Shown: positions 2,038-24,585 of the stretch, in pieces | Layout: every line of letters starts with the position of its first letter | Position numbering within the stretch: the stretch's first letter is position 1 | Source: Glycocaulis abyssi | Lineage (GTDB): Bacteria; Pseudomonadota; Alphaproteobacteria; Caulobacterales; Maricaulaceae | NCBI RefSeq assembly: GCF_041429775.1 | Contig: NZ_CP163421.1 | Coordinates: 1,575,001 to 1,639,000, forward strand | Length of the DNA stretch: 64,000 bases | Direction of reading: 5' to 3' | Position numbers and translations under genes: made by a program | The notes under the pieces: model-generated | The model's input: the letters and a program-made list of their open reading frames with translations, nothing else | Told to the model about the DNA's origin: nothing | Databases searched by the model: none

Positions 2038-2748
2038 TTACCGCCTGAACACCCTCACAAAGACCGGGTAGAGCAGCATGCCCGCCAGCAGGCCGCCGAC
2101 ATGGCCGGCCCAGGCGATGGGTATGGAATAGAACATGCCGCCAATCGCGATCAGCACATTGATGAGCAGCCAGGGAATGGCGAGGCGCAGCATCCCTGCG
2201 CGGCCGCCATTGGCCCAGCCCGCCGCTGCAAACACGCCCGATACCGCCGTAGACGCCCCCACCATGAATGTGGGCTCGTTCAGATGGACCAGCGCGTGCA
2301 GCCCTGCTCCCGCGATGGCACAGGTGAAGTAGAAGGCGAGAAATCCCGCCGCAGCGAAAAAGCCCCGCCCGAAGGGCGCGGCTGCGGCACTGCCCACCGC
2401 CAGCAAAATTCCCATATTGAGCAGGACGTGCCACCAGCCCGCATGCACAAAGACGTGCAGAATGTAAGGGCTGAGACCGCCAAGCGGCGGCTCTGGCGGC
2501 GGATAAGGCAACATTTCCGGAGCCGTCACGAGCGCGCCTGACCACATGATAAGACCATGCAGGACATGGTTATTGGCCGCTGCCCAGCTATCAACGCCGT
2601 GCACCGCCAGGGTAAGCGCGCACAGGGCCAGCACCAGGCCGGAGACACCCGGCCCAAGGAATGGCACACGCACCGCCGCCGCCCGGTCTGCAGGATCGTG
2701 TTCGCCGGGGCCTGCACCGCCGGGTGCGCCAGGTTCCTGTTCAGTCAA
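2038..2748 (-). CDS. Rhomboid-family intramembrane serine protease
   Basis: The frame encodes a six-helix membrane protein with rhomboid signatures in order: an H-x2-x3-N segment (HVLLNMGILL), the serine motif GASTAVSG (canonical GxSG region with T in the second position of the usual GASG), and the catalytic-histidine helix GHVGGLLAG. These give the Ser-His dyad of a rhomboid protease cutting substrates within the membrane. I chose a TTG at 2748 because AAGGAAAA lies seven bases upstream and the longer frame (to 2901) would run through the hfaA promoter and start. This gives 236 residues. A GTG slightly upstream is an alternative. It is divergent from hfaA. The substrate is unknown. Confidence 0.8.
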   Translation of the reverse strand: MTEQEPGAPGGAGPGEHDPADRAAAVRVPFLGPGVSGLVLALCALTLAVHGVDSWAAANNHVLHGLIMWSGALVTAPEMLPYPPPEPPLGGLSPYILHVFVHAGWWHVLLNMGILLAVGSAAAAPFGRGFFAAAGFLAFYFTCAIAGAGLHALVHLNEPTFMVGASTAVSGVFAAAGWANGGRAGMLRLAIPWLLINVLIAIGGMFYSIPIAWAGHVGGLLAGMLLYPVFVRVFRR

Positions 2749-2785: not shown

Positions 2786-2800
2786 TGGCACACGCGTTGC
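2786..2800 (+). promoter_or_regulatory. Sigma-54 (-24/-12) promoter of hfaABD
   Basis: TGGCAC-ACGCG-TTGC is an exact match to the sigma-54 consensus TGGCAC-N5-TTGC. It lies 46 bases upstream of the hfaA ATG, leaving room for a leader of about 35 bases. An exact match of ten fixed positions is expected roughly once in ten such windows by chance, so its placement in this short divergent intergenic region is what makes it convincing. The rhomboid gene starts on the other strand at 2748. Confidence 0.7.
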
Positions 2801-2845
2801 AGCCACCAGGTCCAAGCGTATCCAAACAGGACACTGGAAAAGATT

Positions 2846-3313
2846 ATGCCGCGTTTTGCCAAAGTCACCCTCGCCACCGCAGCCATCGCGCTTGCAGGCA
2901 CCAGTATAGCCCAGGCCCAGCAGGCCGGGGATAACTGGAACCAGCCCTATGGCATGGCGCAAGGCGATGAGAACCGCCCCTATGCCGGCCAGCGCGGGCG
3001 TGGTGCTAACCGCGTCGTGATCAATGGCATCATCCAGACAGGCGTTGGCGTCTCGGCGCAAGGCACAGCTACCGGTTCGACCGGTCTTCGCGGCGGTGTG
3101 GGCGGCCATGGCCAGCACACCGGCTCCTCAGCCACCGCCATCGCCAACCAGCTCAACGTTGTCGTGAATGGCAACTACAACACGGTGGTCGTGAATTCGC
3201 GCCAGATCAACAATGGCGACGTCACGGCCAATGCCAGCGCCTCTCGCGCGGCGCAGCAAGCCAACACGCAAACCTCCTCCTCTACCCCTCAAAGTCCGGA
3301 GTCGCCCCAATGA
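2846..3313 (+). CDS. hfaA: Holdfast anchoring protein HfaA
   Basis: A 155-residue secreted protein with a signal peptide (hydrophobic stretch at residues 6-20, cleavage near IAQAQ). The mature part is rich in Asn, Gln, Val and Gly, with curlin-like VVVNGNYNTVVVNSRQ around residue 110, suggesting an amyloid-like or beta-rich fibre subunit. In Caulobacter, HfaA, HfaB and HfaD form the complex that anchors the polysaccharide holdfast to the pole. Identity here comes from the gene order small curlin-like protein / CsgG-like lipoprotein / large repetitive protein. The stop overlaps the hfaB start (ATGA). ATG 2846 was chosen because it begins the signal peptide; the longer frame is non-coding promoter sequence. 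Confidence 0.8.
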   Translation: MPRFAKVTLATAAIALAGTSIAQAQQAGDNWNQPYGMAQGDENRPYAGQRGRGANRVVINGIIQTGVGVSAQGTATGSTGLRGGVGGHGQHTGSSATAIANQLNVVVNGNYNTVVVNSRQINNGDVTANASASRAAQQANTQTSSSTPQSPESPQ

Positions 3314-4302
3314 CCCGAATTAAAAGCCTTTTCGTGGCCGCCGCATCGGCTCTTGCCGTATCGGCCTGCGCCACCTCCAATTCCGGCTCTGACGGGCTGT
3401 ATGCAACGCCGACGGGCAATGCGCCGGTTACGGCCAACCCGACCCCGTACTCGCAAGCGCTGGTATGCATTTCCGGCCATGCGCGCCAGCAGGGCCGTCC
3501 GGCACCGCGCGTCGCGGTGGGCCGCATCGCGGACTATACCGGACAGCTGGCGCCTGAAGGCGGTACGCGTGTCACCCAAGGCGCATCGCTGATGGCGATG
3601 AGCGCCTTTGCCAAGGCTGGTGCACGGCTGGTGGAGCGTTTCGACACATCGGTGGCCGAACTGGAGCTGCGGTATACCAACAGCCAGCTGATCGGCGACG
3701 AAGTTGAAGAGCAGGGCTTTCGCCAGATCTATGCCGGTGCGATGCCCGGTTCGGACTATTTCCTGGTCGGCGGCATTACCGAGCTCAACTCCAATATCCG
3801 CTCCAACGGTCAGGATCTGTTTGCCGGCGACAGCGTTGATTCCAGCCCGGCAGCGGTCTTCTCGCGCCGCGTCTATGTGATGAATGTCGCGCTTGATCTG
3901 CGCCTTGTGGACAGCCGCACGCTCGAAGTGGTCGATGTTGTGTCCTACCAGAAGCAGATCATTGGCCGCGAGCTCTCGGCTGGCATTTTCAGCTTCTTTG
4001 GCGATGCGGTGGTGGATCTGTCCGCCGGTGGCCGCTCGCTTGAGCCGGTCCAGCTCGCCGTACGCGCCGTCATCGAACGCGCCGTGCTTGAAATCTCGTC
4101 CCAGCTTTATGGCGTCCGTGCTGAATCGGTCTGCCAGTTCAATGATCCCATCGGCCCGTCGAATGTTACCGGCGGCGTCCAGCTCAATACGGCTTATGCC
4201 GGTACGGAGGCCCCCTATGTCCAGGCTCGCACTGACGTCAATCGTGGCCATGACCGCCGCGATAGCGACATCCGCAGCGTCCTTCGCGGCGTCTATCGAT
4301 AG
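3310..4302 (+). CDS. hfaB: Holdfast anchor secretion lipoprotein HfaB (CsgG family)
   Basis: A 330-residue CsgG-family protein. The N-terminus is a lipoprotein signal with lipobox VSAC, so Cys20 should be lipidated and the protein placed in the outer membrane. The middle carries the CsgG fold (VAVGRIADYTGQL near residue 74, FLVGGITELN near 151, then beta-rich segments). CsgG proteins form oligomeric secretion pores for curli-type subunits; in Caulobacter HfaB plays this part for HfaA and HfaD. It overlaps hfaA by four bases upstream and hfaD by 86 bases downstream, so the three genes form one tightly packed operon. Confidence 0.85.
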   Translation: MTRIKSLFVAAASALAVSACATSNSGSDGLYATPTGNAPVTANPTPYSQALVCISGHARQQGRPAPRVAVGRIADYTGQLAPEGGTRVTQGASLMAMSAFAKAGARLVERFDTSVAELELRYTNSQLIGDEVEEQGFRQIYAGAMPGSDYFLVGGITELNSNIRSNGQDLFAGDSVDSSPAAVFSRRVYVMNVALDLRLVDSRTLEVVDVVSYQKQIIGRELSAGIFSFFGDAVVDLSAGGRSLEPVQLAVRAVIERAVLEISSQLYGVRAESVCQFNDPIGPSNVTGGVQLNTAYAGTEAPYVQARTDVNRGHDRRDSDIRSVLRGVYR

Positions 4303-9020: not shown

Positions 9021-10118
<1,098 letters not shown>

Positions 10119-10189
10119 CCTCCCTTCCCTGAACTCCCGGCCAAGCGAAGCACAGAGCCGGGACCTTGCGCAGGAAAATCGGAACAAGA

Positions 10190-10326
10190 CCGGGTTATCG
10201 AGGCTGTCTGCCGATGTCTCCCCCCGTTTACGGGGGGAGTGGTCCGAAGGACCGAGGGGGGGTGTTCCCAATAGCTCCCCCCTCCGTCAGCTTCGCTGAC
10301 ACCTCCCCCGTAAACGGGGGAGGAAA
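10190..10326. repeat. Long palindromic repeat between pseB and pseC
   Basis: Two arms, CCCCCGTTTACGGGGGGAG near 10215-10234 and CTCCCCCGTAAACGGGGGAG near 10303-10323, are near-perfect inverted copies flanking further short hairpins (TCCGAAGGACCGAG and GTCAGCTTCGCTGAC). The unit can fold into one large stem and lies between the two convergent stops. It looks like a dispersed REP-type element that may also end transcription on both strands. Confidence 0.6.
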
Positions 10327-10333
10327 CCGATCT

Positions 10334-11512
10334 CTAACCCAGCACCTCAGCCAGCGCCGCGCACACCCGCTCCACATCGCCCGTGCCCATGCGCGTGAAG
10401 AGGGGCAGCGATAATGTCTGCACATAATGCGCCTCGGCACCTGGCAGGCTCCGGCAGCCATAGCGGCGGACATAGTAGGGCTGGGTGTGGACCGGGATGT
10501 AGTGGACCTGTGTGCCGATGCCACGCTCTTTCAGGGCATTCATCACGACCGCGCGCGTGCGCCCGGCGGCCTCGAAATCGATTTGCACATTCATCAGATG
10601 CCGGCACGGATCGCTGCCTTGCGGATCAGCGGGCAGGCGCACCAGCGGCGCAAGGGCATGCAGGTGCTCGCGATAAGCTACCGTCAGCGCGCGGCGTTTG
10701 GCGGCGAACTGCGCCATGCGGGCGAGCTGCGCCCGGCCAAGCGCGGCATTGATATCCGGCAGGCGGTAATTCCAGCCCAGAGACGCCATCTCGTGATACC
10801 AGGGCTCGCCCGCGCCTTCGGCCCGCTCAAACCTCGCCGCATCGCGCTCAATGCCGTGGCTGCGCTGGCGCGCCATGCGCGCGGCGAGATCGGGACTGTT
10901 CGTGGTCACCATCCCGCCCTCACCGGTGGTGAGCGATTTGACCGGGTGGAAAGAGAAGGTCGCCGCTTCGCTATGCGTGCAGGCCCCGACCATCGCGCCT
11001 GATGCGCCGCGCGAGGCGATAGCGTGGCAACTGTCTTCAATGATCGCCAGGCCGTGCTGGCGGGCGAGGGCCGCAATCGCCTCCATGTCGCACGGCACAC
11101 CGGCCAGATGCACGGGCAGTACGGCCTTCGCCCTGCCCCCTGCCCGCTCCAGCGCATCTGCCAACGTGTCAGCGGTCAGCAGGCCCGTCGCCGGGTCCAC
11201 ATCGGCAAACACAATCTCCGCCCCGCAATAGCGCGCGGCATTGGCGGTCGCCATGAAGGTGATGGACGGGACAATGCAGACATCCCCCTCGCCCACCCCC
11301 AGCGCATCCAGCGCGAGGTGAAGCGCCGTCGTGCCATTGGAGCATGCAATGGCGTGGGCGGCCCCGGTGAACCGCGCAAACTCCGCCTCGAATGCGGGGA
11401 TTTCCGGCCCGGTCGTCAGATAATCGGATTGCAGCGCGCGCACGGCGGCGGCGATATCAACCTCGTCAATATCCTGGCGCCCATAGGCAAGTAAATCAGC
11501 CTGCTGCGTCAT
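10334..11512 (-). CDS. pseC: UDP-4-amino-4,6-dideoxy-N-acetyl-altrosamine transaminase, PseC/FlmB
   Basis: A 392-residue PLP-dependent aminotransferase of the DegT/DnrJ/EryC1 family, catalysing the second pseudaminic-acid step. Motifs seen: the substrate/cofactor loop CSNGTTALHLAL (near residue 58), the EDSCHAIASR segment, and the PLP-lysine region TFSFHPVKSLTTGEGG (Lys near residue 193). Length matches PseC. It is convergent with pseB across a palindromic repeat instead of lying in an operon with it, so the two enzymes must be expressed from separate promoters. Other DegT family members are possible on motifs alone, but the complete pse gene set in the same window settles the call. Confidence 0.9.
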   Translation of the reverse strand: MTQQADLLAYGRQDIDEVDIAAAVRALQSDYLTTGPEIPAFEAEFARFTGAAHAIACSNGTTALHLALDALGVGEGDVCIVPSITFMATANAARYCGAEIVFADVDPATGLLTADTLADALERAGGRAKAVLPVHLAGVPCDMEAIAALARQHGLAIIEDSCHAIASRGASGAMVGACTHSEAATFSFHPVKSLTTGEGGMVTTNSPDLAARMARQRSHGIERDAARFERAEGAGEPWYHEMASLGWNYRLPDINAALGRAQLARMAQFAAKRRALTVAYREHLHALAPLVRLPADPQGSDPCRHLMNVQIDFEAAGRTRAVVMNALKERGIGTQVHYIPVHTQPYYVRRYGCRSLPGAEAHYVQTLSLPLFTRMGTGDVERVCAALAEVLG

Positions 11513-14586: not shown

Positions 14587-15420
14587 CTATCGTCCGAAGA
14601 GCGACAGGATGATCTGAGGTTCGGCGTTGGCGATCGAGAGTGCCTGAACACCGAGCTGCTGTTTGACCTGCAAGGCGGTCAGCTGAGCGCTTTCCCTGGC
14701 AAGGTCTGCGTCCACCAGATTGCCTACCCCTGCTGAAAGACTGTCACTGAGCTTTCCGATGAAGGTCCGGTGGGCCTCCATCTTCTTCAGGTCCGAGCCG
14801 AGGCGTGCCAAAGCTGCGTTGACGTTATCAAGGCTCGCATTGACGAAGGACACAGCGCTCGCCGCCAGCGAGACGGTGCCAAGGCTCGCCGTACCCGACA
14901 GGGTGATGATCGTGCCGGAGAAGCTCATATCCTGCGTGCTCAGCGTGACCGAGCGGGCCGCGTCCGCGTCTGCCAGGAAGGCAATGCCGCCACTGATGGA
15001 GCCGTTGAGCATGTTGGCGCCATCAAAATCGGCATTCTGCAGAATGACCTGGATCTGGTTTATCAGTGCCTTGAAGTCACTGTCGTAGGCAGCGCGGGCA
15101 AAGCTGTCGATGGACGCGTCCATCGCGGCGGTGGCCTTCTCGCGCATCTCGATGAGCAGATCGGATATCGCCTCACCGGCTGCAATCGCCACATCGCCGA
15201 TGGAGACTGCCCGGTCGAGTGATGTCTTGACCGATCCCAGCGCCCCGATATCGGCCCGCATCGACTGGGCAACGGCGAACACCGAGGAATTGTCCTTCGC
15301 TCCGCCAATCTTCAGCCCCGTGTTGATACGGTTCTGGGTGGTCTGCAGGTCCGTGTTGGTCTTGTTCAGGTTCTGCAATGCGAGCATTGCGGATACGTTT
15401 GTCTGGACGCTTAGCGCCAT
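14587..15420 (-). CDS. Flagellin (divergent copy, FljJ-like position)
   Basis: A 277-residue flagellin with conserved D0/D1 ends: N-terminal SVQTNVSAMLALQNLNKTN and RINTGLKI, C-terminal NLVDADLARESAQLTALQVK ending in LFGR. The central region is short, as in other alphaproteobacterial flagellins. It differs more from the two other copies than they do from each other (for example GLKIGGAKDNSSVFAVAQ instead of GLSVASAKDNGGIYAIAQ), so it may be the minor filament component corresponding to Caulobacter FljJ (inference). ATG 15420 follows GGGAGAAG, and a sigma-54 site lies 54 bases upstream. It should be exported and be a target of FlmG. Confidence 0.93.
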   Translation of the reverse strand: MALSVQTNVSAMLALQNLNKTNTDLQTTQNRINTGLKIGGAKDNSSVFAVAQSMRADIGALGSVKTSLDRAVSIGDVAIAAGEAISDLLIEMREKATAAMDASIDSFARAAYDSDFKALINQIQVILQNADFDGANMLNGSISGGIAFLADADAARSVTLSTQDMSFSGTIITLSGTASLGTVSLAASAVSFVNASLDNVNAALARLGSDLKKMEAHRTFIGKLSDSLSAGVGNLVDADLARESAQLTALQVKQQLGVQALSIANAEPQIILSLFGR

Positions 15421-15473
15421 CGGTCTTCTCCCAGAGTCCCGCCGCCTTTTGGCAGCCCTTCGCGCCTGACGGA

Positions 15474-15488
15474 GCAAGAGCGGGGCCA
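15474..15488 (-). promoter_or_regulatory. Sigma-54 promoter of flagellin 1
   Basis: Minus strand TGGCCC-CGCTC-TTGC; the GG/GC core and spacing of a -24/-12 element are intact. It sits 54 bases before the start codon. Confidence 0.75.
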
Positions 15489-15531
15489 TCAGGGTTAATT
15501 TGGGATTATCTGAGCAAAACCATATAGTTAT

Positions 15532-15568
15532 AAAAACGAAAAACGCCTCCGCTTATGGCGGGAGGCGG
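15532..15568 (-). terminator. Terminator after flaG
   Basis: On the minus strand the stem GCCTCCCGC-CATAA-GCGGAGGC is followed by GTTTTTCGTTTTT, a standard intrinsic terminator located just after flaG and before the flagellin 1 promoter. Confidence 0.75.
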
Positions 15569-15594
15569 CTTAGGGGCAAAAACTCCCTGCCTCA

Positions 15595-15615
15595 GCCGGT
15601 CAAATTCTGCCGGGC
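15595..15615. promoter_or_regulatory. FlbD (ftr)-like enhancer site upstream of flagellin 1
   Basis: GCCGG-TCAAATTCT-GCCGGGC resembles the CCGGC-AAA-GCCGG palindromes (ftr elements) bound by FlbD upstream of sigma-54 flagellar promoters in Caulobacter. It is about 110 bases upstream of the -24 box, a normal enhancer distance. Confidence 0.5.
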
Positions 15616-15626
15616 AGGCGCCAGTG

Positions 15627-16001
15627 TCAGGCGGTTTCGTTGATAAGCCCGCCAGTCTCGTTCTGCAGGAAGGAGACAAGATCACCGAAGCTTTCCGGCG
15701 GCCAGCGGCGAAGCGTTTCACCGGTGTCAGGGTCCATGAGCTTGTAGATGAAGCGGCCGGCCTTGTCCTCGTCTCGTTCGATCTGGAGCCGGGTACGCCC
15801 ATTGGCGCTGAGCTCGGCGCGCATCCTTTCTATGGCTTCGCTCTGGCGCAAGGTGTCGCGGGAATCTGAACCGGGCTGGCGCGTACCGGCCTCAACCGGC
15901 GGAACCACATTCGGTTCGGCGCTGACAGGCGCGGTGCTCATGGCTATGCCGCTGACCGGCACAACGAGCTCTCGCCCTGATATGGGAACTATAGCATTCA
16001 T
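15627..16001 (-). CDS. flaG: FlaG-family flagellar protein
   Basis: A 124-residue protein. The N-terminal half is a low-complexity linker rich in Pro, Val and Ser. The C-terminal half has the FlaG pattern: helix SEAIERMRAEL, strand TRLQIERDEDKAGRFIYKLM, the turn DPDTGETLRRWPPE and helix FGDLVSFLQ. FlaG proteins influence filament length in other bacteria. It lies between two flagellin genes on the same strand, with a terminator on each side, so it probably has its own promoter, which I could not identify. Confidence 0.8.
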   Translation of the reverse strand: MNAIVPISGRELVVPVSGIAMSTAPVSAEPNVVPPVEAGTRQPGSDSRDTLRQSEAIERMRAELSANGRTRLQIERDEDKAGRFIYKLMDPDTGETLRRWPPESFGDLVSFLQNETGGLINETA

Positions 16002-16095
16002 AACGTCACCTGGCTGGCGCTCCTATCTGCAGACGCCCCCATTCCCCCTAAAAATTCCGATCCTTTTCGTCGCCCGCGGGCTGCAAGATCCTTCA

Positions 16096-16140
16096 GAAAA
16101 GAAAGCGGCGGAGGCAGAACCCCACGTAATGCCCCCGCCA
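16096..16140 (-). terminator. Terminator after flagellin 2
   Basis: On the minus strand GGCGGGGGCA and TGCCTCCGCC form a ten-base stem around a 13-base loop, followed by GCTTTCTTTTC. Confidence 0.65.
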
Positions 16141-16157
16141 CTCTCCCCACCACTAAC

Positions 16158-16985
16158 CTAGCGGAAGAAGCCCAGCACCGTGGACGGTGCAGAGTTGGCA
16201 ATCGACAGCGCCTGGATGCCAAGCTGCTGCTTGACCTGCAGGGACTGCAGACGGGCCGATTCCTTCGCGAGATCGGCGTCGACAAGGTTGCCGATACCCT
16301 TTTCAAGGCTGTCGGAAAGCTTGCTGACGAACGTTTTGTGGATTTCCAGCGACTTCGAACCCGTGCCCAGACGCGACAGCGCCGAGTTCAGGTTGGTCAG
16401 GGCCGACTCGATGGCCGTGACGGCTGCAGTCGCATCGGACTGAGACGCGATATCCGTACCACCGGACAGGCCGATAATGGTGCCGGACAGCGACAGGTCT
16501 TCGTCTGTCACGCTGATCGTGTTGGTGCCCTTGGCATTGGCCAGAGCCGAAATGCCGCCGGACATCGAACCGTCGATCAGGTTGGAGCCATTGAACTCGG
16601 CGTTTTCCACGATCGTCGAGATCTGGTCACGCAGAGCCTTGAAGTCTTCGCTGAGAGCCGTACGCGACGCACTGTCCAGCGACACGTCCGACGCAGCCAG
16701 CGCCTTTTCCTTCATCTCGATCAGAAGATCGGAGATGGCGTCACCGGCCGCCAGACTGACGTCGACAACAGAGATGGCAAGGTCGAGGGAGTTGTTGACA
16801 GCCCGCAGGCCGCCGACTTCCGCACGCATGTTCTGGGCGATGGCGTAGATGCCACCATTGTCCTTGGCAGACGCGACCGACAGACCGGTGTTGATCCGGT
16901 TCTGAACGGTTTGCAGTTCCTGATTGGTGCGGTTGAGGTTTTGCAGGGCGACCATCGCGCCCACATTGGTATTTACACTAGCCAT
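16158..16985 (-). CDS. Flagellin (copy 2, FljK/FljL-like)
   Basis: A 275-residue flagellin starting ASVNTNVGAMVALQNLNRTN and ending LQVKQQLGIQALSIANSAPS with a terminal FFR. It has the alphaproteobacterial short central domain. ATG 16985 follows AAGGAG at a seven-base spacing, and a sigma-54 promoter (17061-17075) plus three palindromic enhancer-like sites lie upstream, the strongest control region in the cluster, which suggests a major filament subunit. It is very similar to the copy at 17340-18170, pointing to a tandem duplication. Likely O-glycosylated with pseudaminic acid by FlmG. Confidence 0.95.
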   Translation of the reverse strand: MASVNTNVGAMVALQNLNRTNQELQTVQNRINTGLSVASAKDNGGIYAIAQNMRAEVGGLRAVNNSLDLAISVVDVSLAAGDAISDLLIEMKEKALAASDVSLDSASRTALSEDFKALRDQISTIVENAEFNGSNLIDGSMSGGISALANAKGTNTISVTDEDLSLSGTIIGLSGGTDIASQSDATAAVTAIESALTNLNSALSRLGTGSKSLEIHKTFVSKLSDSLEKGIGNLVDADLAKESARLQSLQVKQQLGIQALSIANSAPSTVLGFFR

Positions 16986-17060
16986 TTCTTGGCTCCTTTT
17001 CACGTTCTATGGTGTGACGCGCGTTTTGCGTGCCAGGTCTTCTGACCCGGAGGGCTCCCA

Positions 17061-17075
17061 GCAAGGGTGGGGCCA
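17061..17075 (-). promoter_or_regulatory. Sigma-54 promoter of flagellin 2
   Basis: Minus strand TGGCCC-CACCC-TTGC, the same -24/-12 pattern as for flagellin 1, 76 bases upstream of the start codon. Confidence 0.75.
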
Positions 17076-17162
17076 AAACGAATCACTTGAATGCAAAAAT
17101 CAGAAAACCCTATTAATTTCACGTGGTTATAAATATCAGCAAAACCTGAACGTGAAGCACGG

Positions 17163-17230
17163 ACGGCAAATTATGCCGGGCAGACCCCCAAAAGCCCGGC
17201 AGAACTTGCCGGGCAGGCAGTTTTTGCCGG
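17163..17230. promoter_or_regulatory. Cluster of three FlbD (ftr)-like palindromes
   Basis: Three similar palindromes lie about 90-155 bases upstream of the flagellin 2 sigma-54 box: ACGGCAAATTATGCCGGG (17163-17180), GCCCGGCA-GAAC-TTGCCGGGC (from 17194, the best, with 8-base arms) and GGCAGTTTTTGCCGG (17216-17230). They match the ftr pattern used by FlbD to activate sigma-54 flagellar promoters in Caulobacter. Confidence 0.6.
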
Positions 17231-17297
17231 TTATCGAATCACTAAAATTTACGACGAATCAGCGATTTATTGATGAAATGCTAACGCCGTTCGCGAG

Positions 17298-17327
17298 CAA
17301 AAAAGGGCCGCCCCGAAGAGCGGCCCT
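17298..17327 (-). terminator. Terminator after flagellin 3
   Basis: Minus strand AGGGCCGC-loop-GCGGCCCT followed by TTTTTTG, 13 bases after the flagellin stop. Confidence 0.85.
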
Positions 17328-17339
17328 GGTTTTCTGCCC

Positions 17340-18170
17340 CTACCGGAAGAAGCTGAGAACGGACTGCGGCGCAGAGTTGGCAATCGACAAAGCCTGAATG
17401 CCAAGCTGCTGCTTGACCTGCAGGGATTGAAGTTTGGCCAACTCCTTGGCCATGTCCGCATCGACAAGGTTGCCGATACCGCTTTCCAGAGCGTCAGAGA
17501 GTTTGGTGACGAACGTCTGATGGATCTCCAGCGCCTTTGATTTGGTGCCCAGACGCGCAAGCGCGCTGTTCACGTTCTCCAGCGAGGTGGCGATCTGCGA
17601 GGCGATATCCGAAGCGGCGCTCGCTGTACCGAACGAGGCCGTCGAGGTGATCGTCACGATGGTGCCGGAGAGCGAAAGATTCTCCGTTCCCACCGTGATC
17701 GTCTTCGAACCGTCCGAGTTCGCCAGAGCGATAAAGCCGTTCGTTGCACTGCCATCGATCAGGTTGAGGCCGTTGAACTCGGCATTCTCGACGATTGTCG
17801 CGATCTGGTCGCGCAATGCCTTGAAGTCCTCGTTCAGGGCGACCCGGCTGGGCGAATCCAGCGACGTGTCGCCGGCTGCCAGAGCCTTTTCCTTCATCTC
17901 GATGAGCAGATCAGAAATTGCCTCGCCCGCGGCCAGGGTGACATCCACTGTTGAGATGCCGCGGTTCAGACTGTCCTGAACGACACCATACGCGCTCACA
18001 TCCGCCCGCATACGCTGGGCAATGGCGTAGATGCCGCCATTATCCTTCGCGTTTGCGACGCTCAAGCCGGTATTGATCCGGTTTTGCGTGGTTTGCAGTT
18101 GCATATTGGTCTTGTTCAGGTTCTGCAGGGCCACCATGGACCCATAGTTCGTGTTCACGGAATTTGTCAT
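17340..18170 (-). CDS. Flagellin (copy 3, FljK/FljL-like)
   Basis: A 276-residue flagellin, start TNSVNTNYGSMVALQNLNKT, C-terminus KQQLGIQALSIANSAPQ ending FFR. D0/D1 coiled-coil ends are nearly identical to copy 2, while the central residues 120-200 differ more. ATG 18170 follows GGAGGAACCCCAC. A sigma-54 site (18229-18243) lies 59 bases upstream, and ftr-like palindromes are found at 18321 and 18382. It has its own terminator. Having several flagellins that differ mainly in the exposed region is the normal state in Caulobacter relatives. Confidence 0.95.
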   Translation of the reverse strand: MTNSVNTNYGSMVALQNLNKTNMQLQTTQNRINTGLSVANAKDNGGIYAIAQRMRADVSAYGVVQDSLNRGISTVDVTLAAGEAISDLLIEMKEKALAAGDTSLDSPSRVALNEDFKALRDQIATIVENAEFNGLNLIDGSATNGFIALANSDGSKTITVGTENLSLSGTIVTITSTASFGTASAASDIASQIATSLENVNSALARLGTKSKALEIHQTFVTKLSDALESGIGNLVDADMAKELAKLQSLQVKQQLGIQALSIANSAPQSVLSFFR

Positions 18171-18228
18171 TGTGGGGTTCCTCCATTCTGGAAGTGGGTA
18201 AGGGACGTTTTGTCCTGCCCTGCCTTGC

Positions 18229-18243
18229 GCAAACCCCGTGCCG
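18229..18243 (-). promoter_or_regulatory. Sigma-54 promoter of flagellin 3
   Basis: Minus strand CGGCAC-GGGGT-TTGC, one mismatch to TGGCAC-N5-TTGC, 59 bases before the start codon. Confidence 0.75.
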
Positions 18244-18320
18244 TTTGACACCGCGATGCCACCCGGTCAGCTGCTTGTTTTCAATAGGGAATATAGCGCC
18301 AGCCCAATCCGCCGCGCGCG

Positions 18321-18398
18321 CCCGGCCAAAACTGCCGGACGCAATCTGGTCTGTGGGCAAAATGCGCCGCCTGAACAGCGCGCAGCCAAAACGGCCGG
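18321..18398. promoter_or_regulatory. Two ftr-like palindromes upstream of flagellin 3
   Basis: CCCGGCCAAAACTGCCGGA (18321-18339) and GCAGCCAAAACGGCCGG (18382-18398) resemble the flagellin 2 enhancer-like sites and lie 80-155 bases upstream of the sigma-54 box. Confidence 0.45.
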
Positions 18399-21232: not shown

Positions 21233-22282
21233 TCAGCCTTCAAAATCGTCCCAGCTGCAAGGCTGGGCAAAGCGGACGGCCTTGGCCAGCTTCTGCCCCA
21301 TGATGGCGTCATAATGCCGGGGAGCGAGGCCATGGCCCGGCCGTACGCTGCGAACATCGTCCGGCCCGACCACCGCCCCAGCGGGCAAGTCGCGCACGAA
21401 ATAGAGCGAGCGGCGGAACTGCACATTGCCCTGCTCGCTGGCCTTCACCACATAATTGACCGAGCCGATGGCGCTGTGCGCAGCCTTCAGGGACCGGGCG
21501 AGACGGGCAAATTCCTCCGGCTCCAGCGAGAAGGCGGCATCAGGCCCGCCATCGCCGCGCGCGAGGGTGAAGTGCTTTTCCACCACGCTAGCGCCAAGCG
21601 CCACCGCCGCAATGGCGGTCGTATCCTCCAGCGTATGGTCTGACAGGCCCGCCAGCGTACCGAAACGGGCGGCCATGTCGGTCATGGTGGCAAGATTGTA
21701 GTCGGCTGCCGGGGCCGGGTAGCCGCTGACGCAGCGCAACAGGGTGATAGCCTGCGCACCATGGGCGCGCGCCGTCGCAACCGCTTCCGTTATGGCATCG
21801 ATATCTGCCATTCCGGTAGACATGATGAGGGGCTTGCCCGTCTGAGCCACGCGGCGGATCAGCGGCGTATCCACCAGTTCGAAGGAAGCGATCTTGTAGG
21901 CTGGCGCGCCCAGACTTTCGAGCAGGTTAACCGCCGTATGGTCAAAGGGCGAGGAGAAGATGGTGATGCCAGTCTTGCGGGCATGGGCGAACAGGGCCTC
22001 GTGCCAGTCCCACGGGGTCGAAGCCTCGGCATAGAGGTCGTAAAGCCGTCGCCCGGCCCAGAGGCCGTCGCGTATCGTGAATTCCGGGGCATCACTGTCC
22101 AGTGTGATGGTATCGGCGCGATAAGTCTGCAGCTTGACAGCATCGGCACCCGCAGCGAGAGCAGCATCGATCATCGCCAGCGCCCGGTCGAGCGAGCCAT
22201 TATGATTACCTGACAGCTCGGCGATCAGATAGGGCGGATGACCGGCACCGATATGGCGGCCATTGATCACGAAATCTGTCAT
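21233..22282 (-). CDS. pseI: Pseudaminic acid synthase PseI
   Basis: A 349-residue NeuB-family enzyme condensing 6-deoxy-AltdiNAc with phosphoenolpyruvate. It shows the N-terminal barrel motifs AELSGNHNGSLDRAL and AGADAVKLQTY, the central SDHTLEDTTAIAAVALGA segment, and a C-terminal SAF (antifreeze-like) domain with RSLYFVRDLPAGAVVGPDDV. The ATG at 22282 overlaps the pseH stop (ATGA), fixing the start; a longer frame to 22339 is a non-coding extension. It is the last gene of the pseFGHI operon. Confidence 0.93.
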   Translation of the reverse strand: MTDFVINGRHIGAGHPPYLIAELSGNHNGSLDRALAMIDAALAAGADAVKLQTYRADTITLDSDAPEFTIRDGLWAGRRLYDLYAEASTPWDWHEALFAHARKTGITIFSSPFDHTAVNLLESLGAPAYKIASFELVDTPLIRRVAQTGKPLIMSTGMADIDAITEAVATARAHGAQAITLLRCVSGYPAPAADYNLATMTDMAARFGTLAGLSDHTLEDTTAIAAVALGASVVEKHFTLARGDGGPDAAFSLEPEEFARLARSLKAAHSAIGSVNYVVKASEQGNVQFRRSLYFVRDLPAGAVVGPDDVRSVRPGHGLAPRHYDAIMGQKLAKAVRFAQPCSWDDFEG

Positions 22283-22857
22283 CTTGCCGGTCCCTGCTTG
22301 GTGATCCTGTCGAGGGCGGACTGACGCAGACCACCCCATTTACGCCGGTCTAAGGCCAGCCGGTAAATGTTTGCTTCCCGGTTCCCATCGACGATACGGG
22401 TCGCGGTCTCCACCGTGCGAAAACCGAAACGGGTGTGCAGATCGATGACGCGCGTATTGCTCTCCAGCACCTCGCATCGCAGGGTTTCCAGCGCGAGCGG
22501 CCCGAACGCGTATTCCAGTGCAAGCCATTCCATGCGCGAGCCGGTGCCGCGCGGCGCATCCGGGCTGGCATAGAAGGCCCATTCGGCCTCGCCCGCGATC
22601 TCGCCAATCCGGGTAAAACCGACCACGCCGCATGGTCCGTCAGGGGTCTCGAAGATGAAATAGCGCCGCGACAGGTCATCGCGTGTCTGTGACCACCAGC
22701 GCGCATGCTCGCCCGGTGTGATGACGTGCGTGGTGTACATGTTGGCCCGCACGGCAGACGCGTTGCGCCAGGAGAGCACGGCGTCCAGGTCCGCGTCCGT
22801 CATTGGCCGCAGCCAGGCGGAAGTTCTGATCGCAATGACGGCTTCAGACACGGGCAT
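22279..22857 (-). CDS. pseH: UDP-4-amino-sugar N-acetyltransferase PseH
   Basis: A 192-residue GNAT-family protein that acetylates the 4-amino group made by PseC. Recognisable features are the start region LRPMTDADLDAVLSWRN, the acetyl-CoA-binding segment EWAFYASPDAPRGTGSRMEW, and LRCEVLESNTRVIDLHTRFG typical of this subgroup. ATG 22857 follows GGAGGT and overlaps the pseG stop by 14 bases; the longer frame up to 23031 lies inside pseG and is not a coding extension. Four-base overlap with pseI downstream. Confidence 0.88.
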   Translation of the reverse strand: MPVSEAVIAIRTSAWLRPMTDADLDAVLSWRNASAVRANMYTTHVITPGEHARWWSQTRDDLSRRYFIFETPDGPCGVVGFTRIGEIAGEAEWAFYASPDAPRGTGSRMEWLALEYAFGPLALETLRCEVLESNTRVIDLHTRFGFRTVETATRIVDGNREANIYRLALDRRKWGGLRQSALDRITKQGPAR

Positions 22858-23899
22858 GCAATACCTCCGCCATCCGTTCCGCGCCCTGCCCGTCAACGAG
22901 AGCACCAGCCAGCACCGAGACCGCAGGCAGGACAGCGGGATCGGCCAGCCATCCCTCCAGCCCGGTGCGCAGCCTGTCCTGCCAGCCCGGCTGGCGCACA
23001 TCACCTGCGTAAAGACCTGCTCCGCTGGCATCGATGGCCTGCGCTGCGGCAGGCTGGTTATCGGCCAGTGACAGGACGAGGCTGGGCAGGCCGAGGCACA
23101 GGCGCTCCAGTGCCGTGCCGCCCGATGCGCCGATGGCGATGTCGCTCTGCGCCATCAGGCCGGCGAGATCGGGCAGATCGACGTGTAGACGGGCGGCAAA
23201 CCGGGCCCCGGCAAGCCGGGCCTCGATCGCGGCGCGATGCGGGGCGCTGCGCCCCAGCACCACGTCCAGCGCCAGCGTGTGCCGATCCAGCACCGGGCTG
23301 ATCACATCGAAAACCGCGCCGGTGACATTGTCGACATCGACCCCGCCCATGGCGAGCAGGAGCCGCTCCGGCCTTGGCGCCTCTGCCCGGCGCTTCAGGC
23401 TTTCTGGACGCCGGCTGGCGACAGCCGGGCGCAGCAGCGCAAAGCCCGCCCCGCAAAAAAGTCGGCAACCGGCTGGCAAGTGTAGCGCATAGGCTCCGGC
23501 CTGGCGGTGGATTCCGGAATCAAACAGCAGCGCACAGTCATGGGGCCGGTCCGCCAGATCGTCGATCACGCATATCCGTTCAGGGGCTTGCCCGCAGGCC
23601 CGTTCCCAGCGCGCATCAAGCCGGTAGTGATCGACCGCCAGCCAGCGCGGCTGCAGCTCTGCCACCAGGGCGGCAGTGGCCTGTGCATCCTCGCTCCAGC
23701 TGCTTAAAGGCGGCAGTTGATGCAAGTGATGGCCACGCCGGGCAATGAGCGAGAAGTCAAACCCCGGCGCCGCGTTGCACGCGAAATGGGCCTGCCATCC
23801 GCGAGCGGCAAGCGCATCGGCGAGGGTCAGGCAGCGCATGAGATGGCCTGCACCGCTGGCCAGCGAGGCATCAGGCCGGATGAGCAGGCGCGCCGTCAC
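22844..23899 (-). CDS. pseG: UDP-2,4-diacetamido-trideoxy-altropyranose hydrolase PseG
   Basis: A 351-residue GT-B-fold hydrolase related to MurG that removes UDP in the fourth pseudaminic-acid step. The start RLLIRPDASLASGAGHLMRC carries the glycine loop and the catalytic His of the GxGHxxR motif. The C-terminal nucleotide site is visible as SDIAIGASGGTALERLCLGL followed by PSLVLSLADNQ. The ATG overlaps the pseF stop by four bases, and the end overlaps pseH by 14. Confidence 0.92.
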   Translation of the reverse strand: MTARLLIRPDASLASGAGHLMRCLTLADALAARGWQAHFACNAAPGFDFSLIARRGHHLHQLPPLSSWSEDAQATAALVAELQPRWLAVDHYRLDARWERACGQAPERICVIDDLADRPHDCALLFDSGIHRQAGAYALHLPAGCRLFCGAGFALLRPAVASRRPESLKRRAEAPRPERLLLAMGGVDVDNVTGAVFDVISPVLDRHTLALDVVLGRSAPHRAAIEARLAGARFAARLHVDLPDLAGLMAQSDIAIGASGGTALERLCLGLPSLVLSLADNQPAAAQAIDASGAGLYAGDVRQPGWQDRLRTGLEGWLADPAVLPAVSVLAGALVDGQGAERMAEVLHARV

Positions 23900-24585
23900 G
23901 CCCTGTCCTGCACAGTCAGGGCGAACAGGCGCTCGGCCCGGGCCAGATCATCAGGGGTGTCGATGTCCACCGCTTCGTGCCCAGCCAGTACGATCAGGCC
24001 CGACCGGGCCGTGAAGACCGGCTTTTTCGCCCGCCAGGCTGCGGCCCGGCCCCAATAGAACTGGCCGCTATCGTAAAAGCGCTCGGGCAGGTCCTGCGTG
24101 CGTGTCGACAGATGTTCAGGATCGTCCATCATCACCCGCCCGGCCGCATCGCGCCGCAAGGCGCGTTCGATCGGATGCGGATAGCGCTGGGCAGACAGGA
24201 CGTAATCACGCTCGGGATCGGCCAGCAGGGCATCCAGCCCTTCGCGCAGACGCTTCGGCGTTGTCATCACGGCTGTCGGCAGGATGCAGCAGGCGATTTC
24301 CGCTTCGCCGTCAACCGCAGTCAGGGCATGCGCCATCACGTCCATCAGGCCGGTATGATCATCGGCCAGCTCCGCCGGGCGCACAAAGGGCGTTTCGGCC
24401 CCCTGCTCACGTGCGATGGCGGCAATGGCGGGGTCATCGGTCGACACGATCACCCGGTCAAAGCAGCCGGACTGGCACGCCGCCGCAACCGCCCAGCCCA
24501 GCATGGGCCGGCCGTGGAAGGGGGCGATGTTCTTGCCCGGTATACGCTTGCTGCCTGCGCGGGCGGGAATCACGGCGAGCCTCAC
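23896..24585 (-). CDS. pseF: Pseudaminic acid cytidylyltransferase PseF
   Basis: A 229-residue CMP-sugar synthetase that activates pseudaminic acid with CTP. The signature IPARAGSKRIPGKNI stands at residues 6-20, followed by FHGRPMLGWAV and VSTDDPAIAAIA; the C-terminus has the VDIDTPDDLARAE motif of the family. The start is GTG at 24585 with AAGGAG eight bases upstream. It is the first gene of the pseF-pseG-pseH-pseI operon, whose genes all overlap by 4-14 bases, so equimolar expression is likely. It is divergent from the MoxR gene. Confidence 0.92.
   Translation of the reverse strand: MRLAVIPARAGSKRIPGKNIAPFHGRPMLGWAVAAACQSGCFDRVIVSTDDPAIAAIAREQGAETPFVRPAELADDHTGLMDVMAHALTAVDGEAEIACCILPTAVMTTPKRLREGLDALLADPERDYVLSAQRYPHPIERALRRDAAGRVMMDDPEHLSTRTQDLPERFYDSGQFYWGRAAAWRAKKPVFTARSGLIVLAGHEAVDIDTPDDLARAERLFALTVQDRA

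Follow-up and report, generated by a model that had tools for sequence, protein, structure and literature searches.

The hfaABD operon of Glycocaulis abyssi, which encodes the holdfast anchor, is preceded by an exact match to the sigma-54 consensus, and this raises two questions: whether a sigma-54 promoter transcribes the anchor genes, and which activator would open it. Both were addressed in the window (the whole 64,000-nucleotide stretch of contig NZ_CP163421.1 analyzed here), in the complete genome and in relatives across the order.

The sigma-54 box before hfaABD

The sequence TGGCACACGCGTTGC at 2786-2800 of the plus strand is an exact TGGCACN5TTGC, as the initial annotation had reported, and its -24 GG and -12 GC are ten bases apart. 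The annotation had placed it 46 bases before hfaA; the box is indeed close to the gene, at a measured 45 nt from the ATG (2846). Sigma-54 polymerase usually initiates about 12 nt downstream of the -12 GC, and the predicted start region in Table 1 follows this geometry. The three genes downstream (hfaA, hfaB and hfaD) all exceed their NCBIfam equivalog cut-offs. As read, hfaA overlaps hfaB and hfaB overlaps hfaD, so that a single transcript is likely; the second overlap amounts to 86 nt with hfaD read from the ATG at 4217, and the true hfaD start may lie later. On the other side, the divergent intergenic gap is 97 nt if the rhomboid-domain gene starts at the TTG at 2746-2748. The window's HfaB and its counterpart in Glycocaulis albus share 96% identity.

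Table 1. Features of the window discussed in the text, in order of position
Feature	Position	Strand	Remarks
Divergent rhomboid-domain gene	2038..2748	-	Pfam PF01694, 61.4 bits; TTG start is our reading
Putative sigma-54 core promoter of hfaABD (-24 TGGCAC, -12 TTGC)	2786..2800	+	exact consensus; kept in 107 of 134 readable relatives
Predicted transcription start region	2811..2814	+	about 12 nt past the GC of the -12 element; expected from the usual sigma-54 geometry
Leader element CGTATCCAAACAGGACA, candidate activator site	2817..2833	+	common with the spmX-like gene in Glycocaulis and neighboring genera
hfaA, holdfast anchoring protein, 155 aa	2846..3313	+	NCBIfam NF037934, 74.4 bits, cut-off 50
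hfaB, CsgG-like anchoring protein, 330 aa	3310..4302	+	NCBIfam NF037935, 409.8 bits, cut-off 300; Pfam CsgG
hfaD, holdfast anchor protein, 403 aa	4217..5428	+	NCBIfam NF037936, 139 bits, cut-off 100, matched from residue 34
Sigma-54-like box of flagellin 1 (comparison)	15474..15488	-	one mismatch; flagellin families below
Sigma-54-like box of flagellin 2 (comparison)	17061..17075	-	one mismatch; flagellin families below
Palindromes neighboring that before flagellin 2	17163-17179 and 17214-17230		11 and 11 of 12 letters
Palindrome CCGGCAAGTTCTGCCGG before flagellin 2, presumed FlbD (ftr-type) site	17196..17212	-	12 of 12 letters
Sigma-54-like box of flagellin 3 (comparison)	18229..18243	-	one mismatch; flagellin families below
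Palindrome as CCGGCAAGTTCTGCCGG, before flagellin 3	18322..18338	-	11 of 12 letters

A consensus match by itself carries little weight, and a motif in the window alone is weak evidence. The window contains 82 matches with up to two mismatches to the motif, compared to 90 expected, and 12 matches to TGGCN7TTGC, compared to 4.6 expected. Over the whole genome (3.05 Mb) the exact TGGCACN5TTGC occurs ten times and the reversed pattern three times. All ten occurrences were inspected. Eight fall within mechanically called open reading frames, and the exact consensus was accordingly rejected as proof of a promoter; a gene start lies directly downstream of the match only at hfaA and at a flagellar rod gene of the FlgE/F/G type. 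The hfaA box stands above chance because it is conserved before hfaA in relatives, as described in the following section. The protein partners of such a promoter are encoded in this genome, both rpoN and activators with the GAFTGA motif; an rpoN gene was detected in 78 of 80 genomes, and the two in which none was detected are 69% and 86% complete.

Conservation of the core across the order

Matches to HfaB were found in 69 of 137 genomes of the family and in 248 of 398 genomes of the order, weak CsgG-type matches included. Our set comprises 136 hfaA upstream regions, of which 134 were readable. It was put together from 66 of the 69 family matches (three weak ones were dropped), 40 order matches that we picked among the matches listed, and 30 loci from 80 genomes. 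This is a non-random sample, rich in Maricaulaceae-type and Caulobacter-type genomes. Another 80 named loci overlap the genomes of this set; they were inspected and left out of the counts.

A box with at least nine of the ten consensus letters is found on the sense strand before hfaA in 107 of the 134 readable genomes, with all ten letters in 84. Its carriers span 22 of 24 genera and all four families, Caulobacter-type genomes included, and among them are Glycocaulis albus, Caulobacter ginsengisoli, Alkalicaulis satelles, Marinicauda pacifica and several Asticcacaulis. By comparison, 29 of 2660 dinucleotide shuffles (1.1%) reached this threshold, as did none of the 134 regions on the opposite strand. 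The distance from the end of the box to the mapped HfaA start is 30-60 nt in 79 of the 107 genomes; the remaining distances deviate, at least in part because HfaA starts were mapped by similarity. The core is conserved against its flanks. TGGC and the final TGC are invariant among the 107 boxes, position six varies between C (86 boxes) and T (21), and the letters of the spacer are mixed. Variation of this kind is what selection on a -24/-12 promoter would produce.

Conservation in close relatives had been set beforehand as a test of the box, and the box passed it, being present in 6/6 genomes of the genus Glycocaulis as well as in the 107 of the wider set. The accompanying suggestion of a wiring specific to the lineage was not supported by the comparison. 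Caulobacter-type genomes have the box just as often (23 of 24 genomes of g28, the genus of Caulobacter ginsengisoli), with the same genes behind the same core; it is the loss that is lineage-specific. From the distribution, the sigma-54 promoter of hfaABD looks ancestral with scattered losses, and it would date to the common ancestor of the holdfast-bearing Caulobacterales. That the anchor operon has a sigma-54 promoter, taken alone, is in our judgment very probable. In the passages of open-licence papers that our literature search covered, no statement of sigma-54 control of hfaA was found; an earlier report of such control in Caulobacter is quite possible.

Additional HfaB-like (CsgG-type) genes of approximately 41-55% identity are located away from the main hfa locus in genomes G093, G070, G274, G356 and other relatives, where they sometimes form neighboring pairs.

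Candidate activators of the hfaA promoter

In the mechanism that we propose, the sigma-54 RNA polymerase would bind the core at 2786-2800 as a closed complex, which an activator with a GAFTGA loop would open for the transcription of hfaA, hfaB and hfaD. The Sigma54_activat model matches seven loci in the genome, and GAFTGA is encoded by two of them. The first, L119, is FlbD (777.8 bits, cut-off 750). The second, L118, has receiver, AAA+ and HTH_8 domains and exceeds no NCBIfam cut-off among the matches listed; we call it TacA-like by elimination among the activators. GAFTGA is missing from L120, which is NtrX (775.2 bits, cut-off 600), and from the NtrC-like L123 (259.4 bits, under its cut-off of 558.6). 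The four sigma-54 activators of C. crescentus are described as NtrC, NtrX, FlbD and TacA, of which FlbD and TacA have GAFTGA (PMC10274813). L120 and L123 sit at approximately 758-763 kb of the genome, and their lack of GAFTGA is as reported for Caulobacter; L123 covers only the first 49 of the 168 positions of the Sigma54_activat model. A TacA-like protein with at least 62% identity was found in 51 of the 51 genomes searched, four times as a partial gene, whether the box at hfaA was present or absent.

The leader of hfaA carries a second element (2817-2833) that it has in common with an spmX-like gene. It is the only place in the window that matches CGTNYYNRAASRGGACA, and it overlaps the region of the ribosome-binding site. 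The spmX-like gene (L282) encodes a muramidase domain, and its best NCBIfam model is SpmX, at 122.8 bits under a cut-off of 700. Its core is CGGCAACCAATTTGC, and its leader GGGCGTTTCGGAACGGGACAC resembles the hfaA leader AAGCGTATCCAAACAGGACAC. A joint pattern composed by us from the two leaders, TTGC-N8-34-CGTNYYNRAASRGGACA, was run over 23 genomes of four genera, where it matches 34 times (twice in 13 genomes, once in eight and never in two); the reversed control matches once. We inspected 30 of the 34, and they belong to 13 hfaA genes, three of these named by eye after the script had classed them as 'other', and to 17 spmX-like genes, each preceded by a GG-N10-GC core. With a looser pattern, five Glycocaulis genomes had 17 matches, compared to 11 for the control, and the genome of the window had two, compared to three. 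The looser pattern therefore has weight only in that its matches at hfaA and at the spmX-like gene, and no others, recur in all five genomes. A matrix built from nine spmX-like leaders alone scored the hfaA leader at p below 0.01 in 6/6 Glycocaulis genomes, and in 0/13 of genus g15 and 0/2 of g14, where the examples shown are borderline (0.0106). With this matrix the spmX-type element was not found in the hfaA leaders of the Caulobacter-type, f2 and f4 genomes, and for that reason it is no order-wide marker of TacA control.

To our knowledge, no TacA binding site is known with which the leader element could be compared. The element could instead belong to the translation start, as a ribosome-binding stretch or RNA element that the two genes have in common by chance, in which case the core would stand and the element would say nothing of the activator. 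This we regard as rather doubtful, with arguments on both sides. The element does contain AGGA or GGGA near the start codon, and a short hairpin (GUCUUC-AAA-GAGGAC) is predicted in the leaders of g15. Against this, the leaders fold no better than their shuffles (mean z per genus of -1.4 to +1.2), on which ground a conserved hairpin over the ribosome-binding site was rejected; the best of 87 other mechanical open-reading-frame leaders in the window has a matrix score of 9.0, compared to 15.0 for hfaA; and in Glycocaulis 12 nt, other purines among them, separate the hfaA element from the ATG. The distance from TTGC to the element also bears on the matter. It is 16-17 nt at the Glycocaulis hfaA genes and 25-28 nt at the spmX-like genes, about one helical turn apart, a difference that would suit DNA binding and that was noticed after the fact.

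The other candidate is FlbD, which would activate hfaA together with the late flagellar genes, so that the anchor would be produced in the swarmer half of the dividing cell at the time of flagellum completion. The initial annotation had tied hfaA to these genes through sigma-54 boxes at three flagellin genes of the window; all three boxes are present, each one letter off TGGCACN5TTGC. The flagellins are preceded by palindromes of the form CCGGCAN5TGCCGG, which we take to be FlbD ftr sites, with best scores of 10, 12 and 11 of 12 letters at flagellins 1, 2 and 3. Among 4000 random stretches of the window, 431 reach at least 10 and 53 at least 11; since 11% of random stretches reach 10, the palindrome of flagellin 1 is not significant alone. 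The best score is 9 at the window's hfaA, inside the gene, 8 at the spmX-like gene and 10 at the FlgE/F/G-type gene. Scores of at least 11 were found in none of 106 hfaA regions (3 of 1060 shuffles), and a score of 10 in 8 of the 106, compared to 49 of 1060 shuffles (4.6%); these counts are limited as a test of FlbD by the motif, which was drawn from the window's own flagellin promoters and not from published ftr letters.

Like the middle and late flagellar promoters under FlbD in Caulobacter, the hfaA promoter would use the same sigma factor through a similar core, as do the flagellins of the window; unlike them, it has no prominent palindromes of the flagellin type. Sharing of the sigma factor is the part of the proposed flagellar tie that holds up as likely. 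Sharing of the activator is less likely, given the lack of palindromes at 11 letters or more and the element in common with the spmX-like gene, and the hfaA promoter is probably outside the late flagellar class. Several points speak for FlbD. In C. crescentus, transcription of hfaA falls in the predivisional stage, a timing that would fit FlbD no less than TacA; a TTAACC-type half-site lies 47-51 nt before the core in all 26 of the Caulobacter- and Phenylobacterium-type regions examined (genera g28 and g29); FlbD with its GAFTGA loop is encoded in the genome; and this protein is reported to drive sigma-54 flagellar promoters in C. crescentus (PMC3930126). On balance we consider FlbD an unlikely activator of hfaA.

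The lack of flagellin-type palindromes and the element in common with the spmX-like gene, spmX being under TacA in Caulobacter, lead us to favor TacA over FlbD, and the sequence comparisons make TacA the reasonably probable activator of hfaA, with 2817-2833 as its putative site. In C. crescentus, TacA is reported to drive spmX and staR at the G1-S transition, under control of ShkA by c-di-GMP (PMC7010744). An RpoN motif is reported at the mapped spmX start, and starts of this kind are described in two classes, one of the swarmer-to-stalked transition and one of flagellar genes (PMC4287350). The hfaA promoter resembles spmX and staR in the position of its core close before the gene and in serving a developmental gene of the attachment stage; within Glycocaulis and its neighbors, its leader element is also found at an spmX-like gene. 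It differs in that the spmX-type element was not found at the hfaA of Caulobacter, and TacA control of spmX is known only from Caulobacter.

The flagellar mutants of C. crescentus require shkA for their extra holdfast production and adhesion, an effect that the authors assign to the tacA programme, and Hershey and colleagues report that PleD affects holdfast production through the same programme (PMC7885107). The parts of that paper available to us name no holdfast gene as a direct target. A conserved sigma-54 promoter on the anchor operon, together with an element in common with the spmX-like gene, makes hfaABD a concrete candidate for such a target. For the joint proposal, an ancestral sigma-54 promoter of hfaABD that is activated by TacA, we would put the chances slightly above even.

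The three flagellin genes (14587-18251) lie near open reading frames that by eye resemble a flagellin-sugar pathway of the nonulosonic acid type (9027-11512 and 21233-24585), with dehydratase, aminotransferase, nucleotide-sugar and synthase-like members.

Accessory sites and lineages without the box

The sites around the core differ between lineages. The TTAACC-type half-sites, which are of the kind bound by CtrA, occur in 34 of 106 regions overall, compared to 4.0% of shuffles, and in 0/6 of Glycocaulis (g1), 0/13 of g15 and 0/16 of g12. The Caulobacter-type hfa promoter thus has the half-site, whereas that of Glycocaulis has the spmX-type leader element in its stead. A perfect palindrome TTCCCC-N5-GGGGAA is located exactly 23 nt before the TGGC of the core in 8 of 23 genomes searched, seven of them in g12 (for example L053 of genome G064) and one in g7 (G030). 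In combination with the core it occurs once per genome, at hfaA only. A role as a general enhancer was rejected for this palindrome, since it is confined to hfaA in these eight genomes and is absent from the genome of the window.

It is very unlikely that an ordinary sigma-70 promoter under CtrA mainly drives hfaABD and leaves the sigma-54-like box minor or unused: the half-sites of the Caulobacter-type genomes, and the boxless lineages that retain hfa and so must use something else, would agree with it, but they are outweighed at the hfaA of the window by the lack of a sigma-70 consensus promoter in 2600-2950 and of any nearby TTAAN7TTAA with up to one mismatch, by the missing half-site in all six Glycocaulis regions, and by the -24/-12 letters, which an unused box would not keep across four families.

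Judged from these alignments, the sigma-54 core looks old and the accessory sites young. The accessory sites are the leader element in common with spmX in Glycocaulis and its neighbors, the TTCCCC-N5-GGGGAA palindrome in g12, and the TTAACC-type half-site in the Caulobacter- and Phenylobacterium-type genomes. We tentatively offer the broader idea, possible though not one that we would expect to hold in full, that the core is a long-standing constant of the dimorphic life cycle, retained across the order as neighboring sites were replaced family by family, with hfaABD as a direct target of TacA. If this were true, hfaABD would be the missing link that joins c-di-GMP, the ShkA-TacA relay and holdfast anchoring.

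No box with at least nine of ten letters was found in 27 of the 134 readable genomes. Two of these loci (L092 and L093) carry the box further upstream, and two (L089 and L096) are cut by contig ends. The remaining 23 are distributed over g18 (ten), g7 (five), g21 (four) and one each in g26, g28, g29 and g34. Loss of the box through loss of its protein partners was not supported: in the 18 of these 23 genomes that were searched, rpoN is present in 17, the single miss being a genome of 86% completeness, and the TacA-like protein in all 18. As most boxless genomes keep both genes, the promoter is dispensable. Lineages with hfa, rpoN and the TacA-like gene and without the box offer a natural comparison of promoter rewiring.

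Two kinds of boxless locus are of note. The ten in g18 (L058-L062 and L064-L068) have another conserved stretch just before the hfaA ATG, close to GCTAACACAATATCAACATTTGTAGTTCAGGAAGG and in a variant form in L059, which is possibly a replacement promoter. At four g21 loci (L101, L102, L107 and L260) and one g28 locus (L243) the sigma-54 site seems to have decayed in place and not to have moved, and TTAA-containing stretches persist upstream.
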